From: a virus
Virus record (IMG/VR): IMGVR_UViG_3300036806_000210
Coordinates: 1-20,763 of that record
DNA: 20,763 nucleotides
Direction: 5' to 3' (one strand)
A program made the position numbers and the translations under genes. A model generated the notes under the pieces. The model saw only the letters and a program-made list of their open reading frames with translations. It did not search any database and was not told the origin of the DNA. Positions 573 through 20,648 of this stretch are shown here, piece by piece. How positions within the stretch are numbered: position 1 is the stretch's first letter; the number at the start of each line of letters is the position of its first letter.

Positions 573-734
573 CTAGGCTTCTTCATCGAGCGGATCGAAG
601 CCCAGCAGTGAAACAACGTCGGCGGGAGTTTCTGCTAATTCGCTATCGTCATCGAGATCGTCATCGTCTGCAATCGCGCGCCAATCAATCGCTGGCGTAT
701 CCACGCTTCCAAACTGGATATCAGGCAGTGGCAT
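573..734 (-). CDS. Small acidic protein downstream of portal, function unknown
   Basis: A 53-residue protein whose ATG at 734 overlaps the last 14 bases of the portal gene in another frame. GAGGGG lies just upstream of this ATG, so I prefer it to an in-frame start at 767. It is very acidic (a DDDDLDDD run near residues 23-30) and ends with the motif DVVSLLGFDPLDEE. The overlap implies translational coupling to the portal gene. I do not recognise the family. The acidic character and the place between portal and protease would fit a small head-assembly or scaffold-like role, but this is a guess from position. Confidence 0.6.
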   Translation of the reverse strand: MPLPDIQFGSVDTPAIDWRAIADDDDLDDDSELAETPADVVSLLGFDPLDEEA

Positions 735-3261
735 GTTGCCCCTCGATACCATTGCGCCATGATGCAAACACTACCGGGCTGATATAGCTTTGCAACGCCA
801 CTGTGGGAGTATTGCCGAGTTTGCCAGAGACATGCTTAGCCACTTCCATCACGGCCTTTTTATAGCCAGTCTCATTGGTTGGAGCCGGGATGCTTTCCAT
901 CTTCTGCATCGCTTCCCGTGTGCCGAGCAATGTCCGAAAGTCTTTCGTCTTGAACTTGCCACCATTGAGAGTATGCGTGTATTCAAGAAGTGATTTGTCA
1001 CTCACTCCCGGAAACAGTTTTCCGTCTGCGCCGGCCTTTTGAGAACGCTCTCGCAAGATTGCAGCTAGGTTCTTGTCGGCCACTTTCAGATTCAGGGCCA
1101 CTCCCTTTTTCCCAGTGAAGCGCAAATACGTTTCGTCTCCTTCGGTTACTACATGGCGGCCTTCTAGCGTTGTAGCGCCGTATGCCTTCTGTTTCGCCTT
1201 GGTGTCGGTGTCGCTTCCCGGCCGTATGCCCATGCTCATCACAAGCTGAGATACTTGGGCGTTTTCCCGTACTTTGGCATCGGTCGATGACTGGAGCCGC
1301 TCTTCATTCTGTTTCCGCACTTTGTCAAACTTGGCATCTAGTTCTTTGATCCGTGCGAACTTCACGGCTGACTGACTCTTAGCGAACCGCTCGGAATACA
1401 CGTACTGCGCACGGCCCTTGGCGTCTTTGCCGATAGCCATCAGATCACCAGATGGATCGGGGTTGATCCTGACTTCATTCCATGCCGGTGGCAGCTTCAA
1501 CGCCTTGATGTGTTGTGGCCACTGTTCACGATTCGATGGAGCCGCTATTAGCGATGGCTTATTAGTGCTCTTGCTTGTCGTGAGGGCGGCTCCGCTATTG
1601 GGGCTGCTGGCTGCTGAGGATGCGCCACCACCGGGGCCTGACGTAAACTCACCACCGCCCGGACTGCCTGCTGACTCTCGCGGATGATCCGCTTCGCTCC
1701 ACTCGTCCTTAGTGGGCTTCTTTGATTTCGCCTGGGGATTATCGGCCTTAGCCTCTTCCTTCGGCGTCGCTTTCTTGGACTCTGTTTCTACCTGTTTAGC
1801 GGCGGCCTTGCTTTTTGTTTTACTGCCGCCGATATCCCCAAGCTCGTCATCGTTTAACGAATCCGGGCTTTCCGACTCCGCTTCTCCCAATTGCAGCGTG
1901 GTGTCGTCGCTTGCTGCTTCGATCTGCTCATCCGTGATGTTGGTCCACAATCCCGTGGCGTCGGACTGTTGGCGAAGTTCTTTCAGGCTTGTTTGCTGAC
2001 CAATAATGCCGCTGTTAAATACGCTCACCACCGCATCGGTGTTGGCTTTTCCTAGCTCGGCGCGTTCCTTTTCTGTCAATACCCGGGATGGCGCAAAACG
2101 ATAATCGAAATCCCGAGGCACATTGCCGAACGTGCTCATGGCAATCACGGGGAACAGTCTGTCTAAATTAGGCTGGAGGTCGTTCACCTGCTTCTGCGAC
2201 ACCATTTCGTCGTAGTTGTGTTCGTCGCCCTCGTTCGATTGGCCTAACCCAGTTTTGGTATCACCGTACAACTTGGTCATGGGGATGCCGGCAGCGCCGC
2301 ATACATCCAGCATGATCTTTTCGTATACATCCGCTAGTCCACCAAAACTATAGGCGTGATTCTCCATCCCTCCGGTATCGGGCAGAGCTAGCAGTCCCTG
2401 GCTGGTCATTAACTCGCTTTGGGCCGATAGCACGTTATAGGCCTGCTGTGCCAATACGCCGCCCGTGGCCAGCATCTGGTCCATGTTCTTGAACTTCAGC
2501 GCCATGATGTTGGCGCGAAACACGAGCGATGCGATATTCCAGCTGGTGTTGTCTCGCTTGCGAAGTTCGTCAAAGATCAGTTCATATTCACTGATGCCCC
2601 AGCGCATTTCCGCTTGCCATTCCCACATCGGCAGCGGCCGCCCGACAAAGCGCAACACACGGGAGCTATGCACCTTATACGCCCCGCCGTGTTCTGTGGT
2701 GATAATGTAATTGGCTGGTAGGCCGAAGTCCCGCGGATTGTTGAGATCCGTGTTCACTTCTTCACTGGGAGTGATGCCGCTCCAGCGGTCAAACACCAAC
2801 AGTCCCCGATAAGAATCTAGTTCAACGTCTTCGAGATCCAGCGGCTGATCCAGGATGCCTTCGTGGCCCTTAATCATCATCACCGCGCCGGCGCCGCCGA
2901 ACAATCTTCCCCAACGGATGCCTTCTAGTAATTTGCCGCGTGTTCCGGTGTGACGAACTACGCGATCGAATTCATCGATCTGCTTGGGCTTGACCTGGGA
3001 GTTGATGATCACCCAGTTCTTCATCATGTCTTCGGCTATGCAATCGATAACCCGCCTGGCTATCCAGTGGGACCGATACAGCGAAAGGCACAGAATATAA
3101 TTGCGTGTGAGGCGAGTAAGCGGATACGCCGTGGATTCCAGCAGATTCGGCGTGCCGTGCCCAGTCCTGGCGAGCGGATTAGAAAAAGCATCCTGCACAG
3201 CACGGTCCATCGTATATGGCCCGGTTAGCCGCTGCTGTTTGACCTTGCAGTTAAACTGCAT
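721..3261 (-). CDS. Portal protein (DUF1073-like) fused to a C-terminal type IB DNA topoisomerase
   Basis: An 846-residue protein with two parts. Residues about 18-450 form a DUF1073-type portal (for example GTPNLLESTAYPLTRLTRNY, SHWIARRVIDCIAEDM, IPMTKLYGDTKTGLGQSNEG), the dodecameric ring through which DNA is packaged and ejected. Residues about 455-575 are a low-complexity Lys/Glu/Ser/Gly linker with a PGGGEFTSGPGGG stretch. Residues about 583-835 match a poxvirus/bacterial-type topoisomerase IB: LPPAWNEVRINPDP, GRAQYVYSERF, R680 (SMGIRPGS), ATTLEGRHV, K718 (FTGKKG), R776 (KDFRT), N817 (LGNTP) and nucleophile Y826 (SYISP). The full pentad is present, with Asn replacing the His of vaccinia enzyme. 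The frame is continuous. The first ATG at 3261 has only weak SD-like sequence (AGG about 10 bases upstream); the ATG at 3210 (MDRAVQDAF) fits portal starts better. Both domains are confident; relaxation activity inside the virion is inferred. Confidence 0.9.
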   Translation of the reverse strand: MQFNCKVKQQRLTGPYTMDRAVQDAFSNPLARTGHGTPNLLESTAYPLTRLTRNYILCLSLYRSHWIARRVIDCIAEDMMKNWVIINSQVKPKQIDEFDRVVRHTGTRGKLLEGIRWGRLFGGAGAVMMIKGHEGILDQPLDLEDVELDSYRGLLVFDRWSGITPSEEVNTDLNNPRDFGLPANYIITTEHGGAYKVHSSRVLRFVGRPLPMWEWQAEMRWGISEYELIFDELRKRDNTSWNIASLVFRANIMALKFKNMDQMLATGGVLAQQAYNVLSAQSELMTSQGLLALPDTGGMENHAYSFGGLADVYEKIMLDVCGAAGIPMTKLYGDTKTGLGQSNEGDEHNYDEMVSQKQVNDLQPNLDRLFPVIAMSTFGNVPRDFDYRFAPSRVLTEKERAELGKANTDAVVSVFNSGIIGQQTSLKELRQQSDATGLWTNITDEQIEAASDDTTLQLGEAESESPDSLNDDELGDIGGSKTKSKAAAKQVETESKKATPKEEAKADNPQAKSKKPTKDEWSEADHPRESAGSPGGGEFTSGPGGGASSAASSPNSGAALTTSKSTNKPSLIAAPSNREQWPQHIKALKLPPAWNEVRINPDPSGDLMAIGKDAKGRAQYVYSERFAKSQSAVKFARIKELDAKFDKVRKQNEERLQSSTDAKVRENAQVSQLVMSMGIRPGSDTDTKAKQKAYGATTLEGRHVVTEGDETYLRFTGKKGVALNLKVADKNLAAILRERSQKAGADGKLFPGVSDKSLLEYTHTLNGGKFKTKDFRTLLGTREAMQKMESIPAPTNETGYKKAVMEVAKHVSGKLGNTPTVALQSYISPVVFASWRNGIEGQHATA

Positions 3262-9673: not shown

Positions 9674-10495
9674 TTATGCAGCCCGTGGAATGCCGTTTAT
9701 TTTCAGGAATTGGCTCCGAGTCATTCTCGTCACGGCGCCATTGCCATAGACTCGAGCGGGCCAGCTAATCTCTTCCGTGTCGATGAGTGGTTGGCTATCA
9801 CAGCGGCATCCGGGAGATTCCCCCGGACCGTAATGCCCTAGCGTGCTGGCTTCCCCGATCAATGCTTCCGGGGCTGGATCGTCATCAAACGGGCAGATCA
9901 CTTGATCCATGTACCGATGACTTTTGCGTACTCTCGAGTCCCGAGATGTACTCCAGATATAGAACCCCGCACCCACCGCCTCGGCCCGAGCCCGCGTCAG
10001 AGCTGTGATCGACTTCATCGTCTCCGTACGCGCAATCAGGCTGATTCTGCTTTCGCTTAACTGGGAGAGATGCGGCCTCAATTCCTGAGCGATGGTAGCA
10101 GCGCGGGCGCCTTGAATCTGCCGTTTCGATACATATCGTGTAGCCTTCTCAGCCAGCCACTCCGGGAGTGATTGAATCAGCGCCGCGTTTTGCGTCACTA
10201 GCCGGCGCATCTCGACACCAACGCTGCCGTGCAACTCGCTCTGTAGAGCATTGAATACTTCCCTGCCCCGCATGCTTTTCGATGCTGCGGCACGCCAACT
10301 GCGAGCGTTGCGAACGTTTTGCTGAGCGATCATCCGCTTTGCGGTTTCTTCTGATAGTCGAAGAAACTTGGGTGATTGGGCGATGCTTTGGAGCCGTTCC
10401 TGTGTCAGTGGGCCTTTAAGCATGGCTCCAAACAGTTTGCGCAGTTCGGCCGCATATTCCGTGAACGCCCGCTGAGGGGGGCGCCACGTTGTCAT
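9674..10495 (-). CDS. MuF-like minor head protein (SPP1 gp7 / Mu gpF family)
   Basis: A 273-residue protein. Residues about 1-150 are helical and charged. Residues about 150-235 carry the MuF core: ARTETMKSITALTRARAEAV, then YIWSTSRDSRVRKSHRYMD, and PGESPGCRCDSQPLI with the conserved Cys pair at 230 and 232. MuF proteins sit inside the procapsid near the portal and aid head assembly and DNA delivery. The start codon overlaps the stop of the preceding gene by four bases (ATGA), a sign of coupled translation. MuF usually follows the portal gene directly; here it lies upstream, with adhesion genes in between. Confidence 0.88.
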   Translation of the reverse strand: MTTWRPPQRAFTEYAAELRKLFGAMLKGPLTQERLQSIAQSPKFLRLSEETAKRMIAQQNVRNARSWRAAASKSMRGREVFNALQSELHGSVGVEMRRLVTQNAALIQSLPEWLAEKATRYVSKRQIQGARAATIAQELRPHLSQLSESRISLIARTETMKSITALTRARAEAVGAGFYIWSTSRDSRVRKSHRYMDQVICPFDDDPAPEALIGEASTLGHYGPGESPGCRCDSQPLIDTEEISWPARVYGNGAVTRMTRSQFLKINGIPRAA

Positions 10496-15360: not shown

Positions 15361-16614
15361 TTAATCGGCCAAACGCCAAGGATTTATTGTCGTACGCACG
15401 ATATAGCGGCCGCTGTCCGGGTAATGATTTCGCTGGTTGATTGGCTCATCTATACCTATGCGCTTCGTGTTCCAGGCGTAGGTTTGCAATTCCCGGATGG
15501 CGTCTTCGCTATAAGGGCTCGAGCGATTAATCTTTATCAGATTCCGACTGAGCATGGTCGACATCATGCGGATGCCTTCCATTACCTCGTTGTCGGCGTC
15601 GATTACATAGATGCCGCGGCTCATCAGCTCCACCCGGAAACTAGCAGCACTTGGGTCCAACACGACCGTAGCCTGGGCTGGCGACCGATCGATGAACGCC
15701 TTCATGTCGTCGGCGTACTCGGAATCTGTTTTCTGACGGGCTTCCTTTACTGAGTCCCAGTAATAAACTCGATCCCACCACAAACATTTGCCATCATCGT
15801 AACTGTCAATGAAGACGCACGGATTATGTGTCCCATAATCGACACCGATTACCCTTCGCTCATGACCGCCTGGCTGAATCAATCCGGGAGGGGCTTGATC
15901 ATCAGTGTAGTAATTCTCTTCGCTTAGCGAATCGCGGTAAATCGCCCCATCGGCCGTTACCCAAAGCCCGTCAATATAGCGAAGCTTGAATACTCCGGTG
16001 TACTGCCTATGCAGAAACGCCTTGGTCTTTTCGGTTATGTTCGGGTTATTGTCCAGGGGGAAACAGCAACTCCAGAAATCTCCATTCGCTTGCTTTACCA
16101 AGTCGTCTATGTAGTCAGTCTTGAGATAGTGGTGGGGATTATCAGGATTCGTGCTGCCATACATCCGGGATTCCGGCAACGACAGGCGGCTAATCGCCAT
16201 GTCCCAAAACGATCTCGGATACAGCGTTAATTCGTCACCAATCCAGACCCCTACCGTCGCGCCGCGAATCGCCTTCCAGCTACTTTCATCGCTGGCACCG
16301 ATTACCAGGAATGGCCGCTTGAGAAGCCATAACTCGCCACTGTTACTGTTGTACCGATAGCCATCCTCGCCCACCATGGCGAAAATGTCGTTCAGCATAT
16401 TCGTCTTGGCCGCTTGCTTGCTGCGAGCAGTGATCAGGCCAATGCCACCAGGCCACCAGCCATCGCTTAGCCAGCCCACCAACTTCGCGTTAATGGCCCA
16501 TGTTTTGGCCGATCGCACCGGCCCCCATAAAACATTGATCTTGGCGTCATCGCGAGGATGGCGCCGAATGAATCGCCTGGCCTTCTTGCTGAACGGCTTA
16601 ATGGTGGTGCTCAA
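15361..16614 (-). CDS. terL: Terminase large subunit
   Basis: A 417-residue packaging motor and nuclease of the PBSX/SPP1-like type. The ATPase half has Walker A WGPVRSAKT (31-38, K37; Ala replaces the usual Gly before Lys), Walker B VGVWIGDE (D127, E128) and the coupling motif GSTNPDNP (153-160). The nuclease half has the RuvC-like acidic residues D259 (GVDYG), D320 (VLDPSA) and D400 (HYPDSGRY). Length is normal for the family. The start is TTG at 16614, five bases after the LuxR-like gene, with no clear Shine-Dalgarno, so coupling is likely. terS lies about 950 bases upstream, separated by small membrane genes and the regulator. Confidence 0.95.
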   Translation of the reverse strand: MSTTIKPFSKKARRFIRRHPRDDAKINVLWGPVRSAKTWAINAKLVGWLSDGWWPGGIGLITARSKQAAKTNMLNDIFAMVGEDGYRYNSNSGELWLLKRPFLVIGASDESSWKAIRGATVGVWIGDELTLYPRSFWDMAISRLSLPESRMYGSTNPDNPHHYLKTDYIDDLVKQANGDFWSCCFPLDNNPNITEKTKAFLHRQYTGVFKLRYIDGLWVTADGAIYRDSLSEENYYTDDQAPPGLIQPGGHERRVIGVDYGTHNPCVFIDSYDDGKCLWWDRVYYWDSVKEARQKTDSEYADDMKAFIDRSPAQATVVLDPSAASFRVELMSRGIYVIDADNEVMEGIRMMSTMLSRNLIKINRSSPYSEDAIRELQTYAWNTKRIGIDEPINQRNHYPDSGRYIVRTTINPWRLAD

Positions 16615-17565: not shown

Positions 17566-18093
17566 TCACTCTTCGGGGGGATCTACCGGCACGACATTTA
17601 CTGATCCGCTGGGTATGGGATCATTCGCAGCGTCTTCATCGTCATCGTCTTCGCTGGAACTTCTAAGCGACTCGGCCAATTCTCGCATCAGCCCTTCGGT
17701 GCCTGTCGATTCATTGCGCTGCGGCCCCCATTTGCTACGTTCCTTCACTTCCAGCCAGAACCGCGCCGCCCTGAAATCCGGCAGTACATCCTCTTCGTAC
17801 TCGTGTTCAATAACTTTCCCTTGATCCTTGTCGTAGAAAAATTTCTTGGTTTTGTGCCGGTAGCCCAAGGCCATTCGATGGAGCGAGGCCGCAACCTTAG
17901 CCGTTGCCGGTTGATTCCCCCTACGAATCGCTTCGGAAAAATCGGCATACTGCTTCTTCCATTCGATCAGTGTGTCGACGTGAATGGAGAGCTGTTCGGC
18001 TATTTCCGCTTGTGTGTAACCGGCTAATGCAAGGTCGTAAGCGATGCCTACGAAGGAGGGGTCATATTTAGTGGGACGCCCCACGTTGGCCAT
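17566..18093 (-). CDS. terS: Terminase small subunit
   Basis: A 175-residue DNA-recognition subunit of the packaging terminase. It opens GRPTKYDPSFVGIAYDLALA, then a helix-turn-helix (YTQAEIAEQLSIHVDTLIEW, about 26-45) typical of TerS. The middle (ATAKVAASLHRMALGYRHKT, FRAARFWLEVKERSKWG) fits the oligomerisation region and the family's usual R-x-WLE-x-K pattern. The C-terminus is acidic and disordered (SSSEDDDDED), probably for contact with TerL. It starts 20 bases after the TET-TAGT gene with no good Shine-Dalgarno. Confidence 0.88.
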   Translation of the reverse strand: MANVGRPTKYDPSFVGIAYDLALAGYTQAEIAEQLSIHVDTLIEWKKQYADFSEAIRRGNQPATAKVAASLHRMALGYRHKTKKFFYDKDQGKVIEHEYEEDVLPDFRAARFWLEVKERSKWGPQRNESTGTEGLMRELAESLRSSSEDDDDEDAANDPIPSGSVNVVPVDPPEE

Positions 18094-18113: not shown

Positions 18114-19823
18114 TTACGAATTGGAACTTCGGAAGGATTGCCAGTTGATCCGGACATCCATGCCGCCCGGCTTTGTTACAAGCTTGCTAACTTTCGGCCA
18201 AAGCGCATGCACACACTTTGCGGCCACTAGGTGCCTCCCGGACTTATAAGCGTTACTGAGACCGCCTGCCACGTTAGCTCCCATCTTGGGTTTAGCCATT
18301 GCGAAGCGGTGAGATAGGAGTGTTTGCCACCCTGCGGTTAAATGCTGCACAGTAAAGTCGACATCTTCCTTCGTCTCTGTTTCGTTGCGGTAATTTATAT
18401 CCGTGTGAGTATCTGTCAGCACACAGCAGTAGGCTCGGTTGTTTAGGCTATATGGTTTTTTCTTAGCTGCGAAACAAGCAAATTGGACATAATCCGCCGC
18501 CGCCAGTGCAACTCTTCCGTGAATGCCGCGCACTTGATTCTCTATGCCGCGGAGGGCGACGGATGCTGGTATTTTGTCTTGTTTACCTTCTTCATTTACA
18601 CGTAGAAACTGCCGAATATTGTCGTCTATCTGCCAATACCTTTTCAGTTTCTGATGCCGTGCGTGCTCCAATATAAACTGCCGCACAAAGGTTATGCCTC
18701 GATTGCCTTGGGGAAGGATTAACAGTGTAGCGTTCGGGTGTTGACGACGATACGCGCCTTCTTCCTGCGGCTCAACCACAGCGGTATACGGCAGCCCGCT
18801 GGCCTCTAGTTGCGAGAATAATGCAGCGTTGGGGCGACCCTTTGAAGGGACGAATATAGGAAACGTGACGACCTTTTCACTATCGTCAAAAGCGGCGAGT
18901 TCTAGCCCCTTTTTTATGGGCCTCGGCCCAACTATAGTCTTGGCGCGCTCGAGTTCCTTCTCTGGCGTTTCGCACTCCTGTATCTTCTCGCGGTAATAGA
19001 ACACGCAAGCGATGCGCTCATATTTGGGCGTGATGCCAACAATCGGAGTATTGCCGTGCCACTCGTGTACATCCGCTAGCAGCACGTCGCTGGTGCGCAT
19101 GTCCACAGCCACCCGGAATTCAGGGAATACCGTGTATCCACCGCTGTACTTACCGCCCTGTACAACGCTCATTACGCCGAAGCCTTGCTTTAGGTCGCCG
19201 GCATCCTGGTGTGCGAGAGTGCGAAAATTTTTGTTTACTGTAATTGTTGTGAAAGCGGTGCCGTGTATTACAAACGAAGGCTCCGTTCTCTTAACTACAT
19301 CCAGTTGTGCAGAGTGCCTAGCTGGGTTGACGCTCTTGAAGTGTTGATCCACAAGCCGGATGTAATCCATACACTCGGCAAACAACTCCGGGTGATTCAG
19401 GCTGAACGCTGTTTTGCGGCAATACGGGAAGCGCGTACCGGTGCGGTCGCGGTTCATAAATCCGATAAGCCCGCTGCCAACGCCCTTAAGTTCTGGATAT
19501 TTACTGATTCTTATTCTGGTCTGTTTGGATAGTGTGCCGTCAGGATACCTGGCGCTCTCGGAACGGCCCAGCGCTGCCGTGGGACGATTGCTAGGGTCTC
19601 CACCGACAACACGTAAGGCTTTGTATGCTCGTGAGCAAACTTCTTGAGCGATGATGTTCTTGCGGAACTGGAGAAGAATCTCTCCGTTCGGCTTAATAAC
19701 GTCGGCATCCTCAGTTACCAGGACATCGATATTCTTTTCGGTGAGCGGCTTCCCTTTCCACGCCTCTCCCTGCTCCGCGGCGCTGCGAACCGGACCATTT
19801 AGCCGGATAACTTTCACAGCCAT
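18114..19823 (-). CDS. TET/JBP dioxygenase fused to TET-associated glycosyltransferase (DNA hypermodification)
   Basis: A 569-residue protein with two enzymes in one chain. Residues about 33-285 are a TET/JBP 2-oxoglutarate/Fe(II) dioxygenase: DVIKPNGEILLQFRK, iron ligands H205-x-D207 (TLAHQDAGD), the distal His in DVHEWHGNTP (H253 or H256), and an Arg for 2-oxoglutarate in YERIACVFYYR (R270 or R278). Such phage enzymes oxidise 5-methylcytosine to 5-hydroxymethylcytosine. Residues about 320-560 are a TAGT glycosyltransferase: PIFVPSKGR, VVEPQEE, LPQGNRGITFVR, and the DDN of YWQIDDNI (400-402), with a later TKEDVDF. It would add sugar to the hydroxymethyl group. It starts six bases after the ParB-like gene and precedes terS. 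Domain calls are strong; the exact base and sugar cannot be read from sequence. Confidence 0.9.
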   Translation of the reverse strand: MAVKVIRLNGPVRSAAEQGEAWKGKPLTEKNIDVLVTEDADVIKPNGEILLQFRKNIIAQEVCSRAYKALRVVGGDPSNRPTAALGRSESARYPDGTLSKQTRIRISKYPELKGVGSGLIGFMNRDRTGTRFPYCRKTAFSLNHPELFAECMDYIRLVDQHFKSVNPARHSAQLDVVKRTEPSFVIHGTAFTTITVNKNFRTLAHQDAGDLKQGFGVMSVVQGGKYSGGYTVFPEFRVAVDMRTSDVLLADVHEWHGNTPIVGITPKYERIACVFYYREKIQECETPEKELERAKTIVGPRPIKKGLELAAFDDSEKVVTFPIFVPSKGRPNAALFSQLEASGLPYTAVVEPQEEGAYRRQHPNATLLILPQGNRGITFVRQFILEHARHQKLKRYWQIDDNIRQFLRVNEEGKQDKIPASVALRGIENQVRGIHGRVALAAADYVQFACFAAKKKPYSLNNRAYCCVLTDTHTDINYRNETETKEDVDFTVQHLTAGWQTLLSHRFAMAKPKMGANVAGGLSNAYKSGRHLVAAKCVHALWPKVSKLVTKPGGMDVRINWQSFRSSNS

Positions 19824-19829
19824 ACGCTT

Positions 19830-20648
19830 TTACGCTGTTACCTCTTCGGGGTCTTCGCTATTGTCAGTTGGAACATTCTCCACTGCAAACTGGACTGCTT
19901 TAATCACGGCATCGGTAGCCGTTTTCACCGCAAAGCGTCGCTCGAGAATATCTAGGTTTCCCTTGAAGCGCTCCCAGTCAGATTCCGGGCAGAACACTTG
20001 GAGCATTCTGATATGGCTTGTTATCTCATCAGAAGGCGGGGTGTCACCTTCGGTCGCAGCCCTGTTCCCTATGAGTTCTCCCGTAGCCTTTTCAGCGCTG
20101 TTCGTTGCTGGTACATCGAACCCATCGGCCATTAAACTTGCCAACTCGCCGGGGTCGAATGCGGTCAACTCAAGGTCGTAGCCGAGTTCATGCAGTTCGC
20201 TGATCTCGAATGCTATCAGTTCCGAACTGCGCTCTACCTCTTCCGCTATCCGGTTGTCTGCGAGACGATACGCCTTACATTGCGCCGCGGTTAAGTCTGA
20301 GGCTACATGCACGGGAATGTGCGTGAAGCCGAGTTTGCGAGCAGCCGCGCGCCGCAGATGGCCGGCAACGATTACCTCTTCTTTGTCGACTACAACGGCC
20401 TGGCGCCATCCGAATTCTTTGAGAATAGCCGCCATCTTGGCGACATTCTCATCGGTGATCTGACTCGCATTGCGCGCGTAATCGATCGGCTGCTCAACCG
20501 GCCACCATTCGATTGCTAACTCGGGATGCACTGGGCCGGCCGGAACCGAAGCAATCCTGACAGCCTGCTTCTTGACTACCGCCTTCTTTTTAGTAGCCGT
20601 CTTCTTTTTCGTGTGGGGGATAGGCACTGTGGAATTCAGCGAGCGCAA
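19830..20648 (-). CDS. ParB/Srx-domain protein (phage ParB-like)
   Basis: A 272-residue protein. The N-terminal 35 residues are Lys-rich and probably disordered. Residues about 47-170 form the ParB/sulfiredoxin-like domain: WWPVEQPIDYARNASQITD, VVVDKEEVIVAGHLRRAAAR (with the GHLRR motif at 96-100), and AYRLADNRIAEEVE. In phages this domain is often fused to or beside a DNA methyltransferase and occurs in base-modification loci. No methyltransferase follows here; the last 90 residues are unrecognised. The first possible start is TTG 20648, overlapping the upstream gene by 59 bases; a GTG at 20627 is an alternative. Its role may be targeting the neighbouring TET-TAGT enzyme to DNA or preparing DNA for packaging. 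Confidence 0.8.
   Translation of the reverse strand: MRSLNSTVPIPHTKKKTATKKKAVVKKQAVRIASVPAGPVHPELAIEWWPVEQPIDYARNASQITDENVAKMAAILKEFGWRQAVVVDKEEVIVAGHLRRAAARKLGFTHIPVHVASDLTAAQCKAYRLADNRIAEEVERSSELIAFEISELHELGYDLELTAFDPGELASLMADGFDVPATNSAEKATGELIGNRAATEGDTPPSDEITSHIRMLQVFCPESDWERFKGNLDILERRFAVKTATDAVIKAVQFAVENVPTDNSEDPEEVTA

Follow-up and report, generated by a model that had tools for sequence, protein, structure and literature searches.

A type IB topoisomerase joined to phage portal and other head proteins beside a small acidic partner, possibly carried as head cargo

The window, which is the whole 20,763-nucleotide stretch analysed here, is a 20.8-kb virus fragment in which a portal gene sits in a terminase–portal–MuF–protease head module (Table 1). 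The gene consists of 846 codons and a stop in one unbroken minus-strand frame (3261 to 721) and encodes a DUF1073-type portal, a linker and a type IB topoisomerase (TopIB). The initial annotation had read it as a single uninterrupted portal frame with a complete TopIB, which the open reading frame, Pfam and PDB matches bear out; its span of 757–3210 lies inside the true frame, position 3210 being the in-frame ATG at codon 18. The portal-domain match covers positions 4–355 of the 357 in the Phage_portal_3 profile and is accompanied by a match to PHROG 146 (E = 7e-109). When the single fusion protein is compared with PDB sequences, it matches both the portal of Pam3 (PDB entry 8hds, E = 1e-41) and the TopIB of Deinococcus radiodurans (PDB entry 2f4q, E = 3e-28). 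By analogy with relatives such as Pam3, the fusion portal would form a dodecameric ring.

Table 1. Features of the window and the evidence for each
Feature	Position	Strand	Evidence
DUF2213 head maturation protease, cut off by contig end	3..494	-	Pfam E 2e-36, PHROG 530
Small acidic partner, 53 aa, 17 D/E, 1 K/R	573..734	-	consensus LPDvHFG..dWR..DDD..L.eTPeDVi.mLGFDP
Portal-TopIB fusion gene, 846 aa	721..3261	-	ORF, Pfam, PDB sequence matches
Type IB topoisomerase domain, residues 572-839; R680 K718 R776 N817 Y826	745..1548	-	Pfam, PDB, AF2/Foldseek
Disordered Lys/Gly/Ser-rich linker, about residues 454-568	1558..1902	-	pLDDT <50
Junction motif W521-S-E-A-D-HPR-ESAGSPGG-G-E-F539, candidate head-protease site after E523	1645..1701	-	consensus [FW]xE(S)xHPR...Gx[FW]
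DUF1073 (Phage_portal_3) portal domain, residues 59-411	2029..3087	-	Pfam E 7e-92
MuF head morphogenesis protein	9674..10495	-	
Terminase large subunit	15361..16614	-	
Terminase small subunit	17566..18093	-	
TET/JBP oxygenase (PF12851) + TET-associated glycosyltransferase (PF20691), one ORF	18114..19823	-	
ParB-like / methyltransferase-associated protein	19830..20648	-	

In the full-length AlphaFold2 model a linker of some 115 residues, predicted with very low confidence, separates the portal from the TopIB; the TopIB domain modelled by itself has a pLDDT of 95. Pfam places Top1B_N_bact at residues 584–613 (E = 3e-8) and Topoisom_I at residues 628–822 (E = 1e-18). Pfam, the model and Foldseek agree that the N-terminal and the catalytic folds of a TopIB are both present. 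The structural comparison suggested earlier gave matches of the predicted C-terminal domain to the D. radiodurans, variola and human TopIB folds (Foldseek E = 1e-14 to 1e-9), and the five active-site residues previously assigned occupy exactly the positions claimed. The domain is basic, with 45 Lys/Arg against 29 Asp/Glu, and type IB topoisomerases need neither ATP nor metal. Separate translation of the TopIB from within the portal gene was considered and rejected, as the linker of the window contains no ATG; none occurs before codon 608, which is already within the TopIB and has no ribosome-binding match.

A small acidic protein that is absent from the initial annotation is encoded directly behind the TopIB. 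Its ATG has GAGGGG upstream and gives a 14-nt overlap with the TopIB stop. Homologues are found in 59 of 71 fetched TopIB loci, compared with none in 108 loci that lack TopIB. In the reverse direction, IMG/VR was scanned with only the peptide's end (TPxDVxx[LMIV]LGFDP). This returned 72 stretches, all recognised by the profile of the acidic protein; a control pattern spaced one codon short gave two chance matches. A TopIB is present in 68 of these 72 stretches and in 64 of the 68 it ends within 182 nt; in three of the other four the acidic gene starts no more than 160 nt from where the stored sequence ends. The partner start precedes the TopIB stop in 56 of 66 cases with separate genes, and in L011, L045, L049 and L050 the partner is fused in frame behind the TopIB. 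Co-occurrence in both directions indicates that the two genes travel together whatever the carrier, and the acidic protein appears, from these sequences, to be a new small protein family tied to TopIB. The partner was not found beside the most divergent TopIBs (L052, L054–L056 and L126), so that it is dispensable for some members. The sole acidic-peptide locus with room upstream yet without TopIB (L247, 1–2500) has an upstream ORF that contains an HPR motif and an HExxH-like stretch.

Relatives were collected from IMG/VR using the TopIB domain and its alignment, and loci obtained with two short motifs were added. This yielded 122 TopIB copies of at least 190 residues in 85 clusters at 95% identity, a set that is biased towards the clade of the query and whose counts are lower bounds because the scans use short exact patterns. 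The initial annotation had proposed looking for the same fusion in metagenomes, and portal–TopIB fusions make up at least 32 of the 85 clusters, from many metagenomes. The catalytic Arg, Lys, Arg and Tyr are kept in all 85 viral clusters and the Asn in 84. Identity to the TopIB domain of the window is 35–66% in an alignment of 40 sequences, so that the active site has been kept over a long divergence. The same architecture occurs in independent contigs (for example L005, L006, L011–L014, L018 and L026), which rules out an assembly chimera of two genes. The whole fusion protein used as a single query returned no relatives, its patterns having fallen on variable parts. Among cultured phages, 942 have the portal and none has the fusion; only two TopIBs occur there, both distant. 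Two short peptide patterns run against 84,980 species genomes found only stand-alone bacterial TopIBs (29–35% identity) and no prophage copy. In 396 genomes of one phylum, 45 have a TopIB, none of which scores above 160 bits, and no host was found in either set of genomes. Our literature search found no paper on a portal–TopIB protein.

As the contigs are fragmentary and some architectures are cut, carriers were counted in the 76 clusters with an uncut 5' end. A DUF1073-type portal is detected by a local profile in 24 of these, and in at least eight further clusters a portal is detected only by PHROG profiles (phrog_146, phrog_21 of the lambda type, phrog_2662/12 and phrog_113). The DUF2213 prohead protease is joined to TopIB in three clusters, a NUDIX domain in L008 and an Alt-like ART domain in L266. 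In L050, L052 and L055 the TopIB forms part of long multi-domain proteins with ART-PolyVal, 2H/Acb1-like, NUDIX or ADPrib_exo_Tox domains, and in L011, L012 and L016 InPase, portal and TopIB share one ORF. About 27 TopIBs are separate ORFs of roughly 300–425 residues, mostly beside portal, MuF or protease genes. On the TopIB tree the portal fusion changes state at least eight times (bootstrap range 8–10), and at least five of these changes are forced by well-supported branches. The viral TopIBs form one clade against the sampled Acidobacteriota and Myxococcota enzymes (support 100/100), which are a separate clade at 29–35% identity; this bacterial sample of 13 copies is small and pattern-selected and allows nothing firm to be said on the donor.

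Three loci depart from these architectures. Inside the 1303-residue portal–TopIB of L015 (2905–6816), PHROG profiles match pieces of thymidylate synthase, RNR, PhoH and terminase, as would be expected if the portal contained an intein. In L051 (3653–6014) the TopIB that follows a phrog_113 portal is divided between two frames that overlap, through sequencing error, frameshift or decay. A rubrerythrin/ferritin-like stretch (residues 509–567) separates portal from TopIB in L044 (4129–6786).

The TopIB is preceded in most proteins by a short motif that lies within the linker of the window and also separates other cargo domains, with five copies in L050 and two each in L045 and L049. In 50 peptides selected solely by HPR...Gx[FW], position -5 is Phe or Trp in 46 and position -3 is Glu in 46, while Ser is the commonest residue at position -2 (26 of 50). 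A stricter DNA version of the motif gave at least 120 matches in IMG/VR, where a rough hand estimate of the chance expectation is a few matches only. Among the matches listed, 80 loci (96 DNA matches) have the motif in frame in ORFs, with 103 peptide matches of which a few have Trp, and many of these ORFs are portals, proteases, MuF proteins or long proteins. The form [FW]xExxHPR[DE]xxGx[FW] occurs in head-module proteins far beyond those with TopIB, often between domains (for example in L050, L142, L172 and L178), and several head-module proteins have two to five copies. Among cultured phages, weak matches over 20 residues make Pseudomonas phage Orimi01 (a hypothetical protein) and Faecalibacterium phage FP_Brigit (the portal) candidate carriers of the motif.

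The head proteases of T4, phiKZ and SPN3US cleave after Glu (PMC5694885), that of SPN3US after A-x-E with Ser preferred at P1' (PMC10052503). The [FW]xE followed by Ser at the junction resembles such an [A/L/S]xE-type site, a likeness that is one of resemblance only. Judged by this pattern, [FW]xE|S may be the cut site of the DUF2213 protease. Stand-alone cargo also has the motif close to its N-terminus, and there it could serve as a packaging tag or docking peptide instead of being cut.

The same TopIB occurs in dozens of related viruses, on the portal or on other head proteins and nearly always beside the acidic partner, which suggests that it is cargo of the particle and not a component of the packaging machinery. 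Since the domain has been swapped among portal, protease and cargo proteins and is nearly always found in the head module, head cargo is the simpler account. We therefore favour, with a probability of roughly 0.58, an active enzyme that is carried in the head on a disordered linker, is perhaps freed by the protease, is delivered along with the phage DNA and is regulated by the acidic partner. In this phage the TopIB, translated in one chain with the portal and C-terminal to it, would enter the prohead with the portal ring, with the approximately 115 disordered residues as a tether. The neighbouring DUF2213 protease may then free it at [FW]xE-x-x-HPR...G-x-[FW]. A basic enzyme that requires neither ATP nor metal would be active once made, which makes an acidic protein produced together with it a plausible brake. 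This role is a guess; as a dedicated partner, the 53-residue protein would most likely act in the manner of a DNA mimic and keep the DNA-binding face blocked until the TopIB is required. The freed TopIB could act without ATP on the phage DNA or on the host chromosome as infection starts and relax supercoils, broadly in parallel to poxvirus virions that carry their own TopIB. More tentatively, the whole could be a mobile two-part module of tailed phages, made up of head-borne TopIB and small acidic inhibitor, that is swapped among portals, protease and cargo proteins at the conserved head-protease junction and delivered to reset DNA topology once a new cell is infected.

One role first envisaged for the fusion was that of up to twelve TopIBs surrounding the channel; on this reading they would sit inside the capsid and relieve torsion as DNA enters or leaves. 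Portals of several families carry at least 32 of the 76 copies whose 5' end is intact, and a long flexible linker could bring the enzyme to the channel DNA. We nevertheless consider this unlikely and do not favour relief of packaging torsion by such a ring: portal attachment changes at least eight times on the tree, the same clade is found on the protease, on NUDIX/ART polyproteins or as stand-alone copies, and a linear DNA with a free end can lose twist without an enzyme. Knot removal, also put forward initially, is mechanistically unlikely, since type IB enzymes do not pass one duplex through another and so cannot unknot duplex DNA. The suggestion in the same annotation that the protease releases the domain for delivery fits better than the ring, given the [FW]xE|S-like motif at the junction and neighbouring domains that are known or predicted to be virion-delivered. 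As many fusions are portal-borne, the enzyme may have a portal-linked role in some members of the clade.

Other accounts differ from the favoured head-cargo reading in what the acidic protein or the enzyme does. Instead of inhibiting the enzyme, the acidic protein might be an adaptor for packaging or assembly that brings the TopIB into the prohead, and the TopIB would otherwise act as in the favoured reading. Its conserved, short and helix-like TPxDVixxLGFDP end is typical of a docking peptide and it is tied to TopIB whatever the carrier; however, a portal-fused TopIB enters the head without an adaptor and yet the gene is retained, and head cargo without TopIB has no acidic gene (0 of 108). 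This alternative is doubtful, though less so than the ring. An effector and immunity pair, in which the delivered TopIB harms the nucleoid or the gene expression of the host while the acidic gene shields the cell that produces the phage, seems improbable. A small overlapping gene directly downstream is what toxin–immunity pairs have, and ART and 2H cargo domains lie within the same proteins. On the other hand, an immunity gene is separate and its product undelivered, whereas in the four loci with the in-frame fusion the acidic peptide shares one polypeptide with the TopIB and would travel with it; moreover, TopIB reseals its own cuts and is also a normal bacterial gene. That the domain is vestigial or structural without catalysis, or that the fusion is an artefact, has nothing but the oddness of the fusion in its favour, and an active site kept in 85 lineages at 35–66% identity on many independent contigs makes it barely credible; the artefact part is already refuted.

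Portal–enzyme fusions as such are already known. In polyvalent proteins a portal or MuF protein is joined to PBECR, 2H or InPase domains, and Iyer et al. (2017, PMC5512222) argue that the products are packaged into the particle and injected. InPase, ART-PolyVal and 2H domains together with portal fusions are hallmarks of these proteins. The first three share ORFs with TopIB in our set, and the fusion likewise joins an enzymatic domain to a head protein in a terminase–portal phage. In the text of PMC5512222 a topoisomerase appears only in the title of a reference, so TopIB is not among the domains discussed, and neither an acidic partner nor the HPR junction motif is found in the passages considered here. 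We found no report of TopIB or the acidic partner among known portal–enzyme fusions. Phage P23-45 offers a further parallel, with a virion RNA polymerase fused to the tail tape protein (PMC10770324); a nucleic-acid enzyme is built into a virion structural protein in both cases, although there it is tape measure and RNA polymerase and here portal and topoisomerase.

Among the TopIBs themselves, the D. radiodurans enzyme 2f4q is the closest solved relative by sequence and has the same N-terminal and catalytic domains, but it is a stand-alone chromosomal enzyme, unlike the portal-fused copy. The topoisomerase I of phage NCTB and jumbo phages is presumably PHROG 23460. It is also a phage TopIB (PMC7824862), although distant (28% identity), not portal-fused and with no acidic partner seen. 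The poxvirus TopIBs (vaccinia H6R, variola) have the same fold as the phage domain but are free enzymes of eukaryotic viruses, not joined to a portal. TopIB of the vaccinia virion is linked to early transcription, and we know of no acidic partner for a poxvirus TopIB. A dedicated small partner of a viral type IB topoisomerase would be, to our knowledge, the first example. Vaccinia TopIB is listed as a known virion enzyme, though it was undetected in that study (PMC1540416). If the enzyme is head cargo as proposed, DNA topology would be added to the phage functions that are run by particle-borne enzymes, in parallel with poxviruses. The junction motif, which well over 100 head-module proteins of diverse types contain, offers a simple way to find unknown cargo domains and makes cargo release inside phage heads directly testable.

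At the other end of the window, one ORF combines a TET/JBP oxygenase with a TET-associated glycosyltransferase, for which no homologue was found in the other fetched viral loci. Its presence makes it probable that the phage DNA is hypermodified. The gene for the ParB-like or methyltransferase-associated protein adjoins it.
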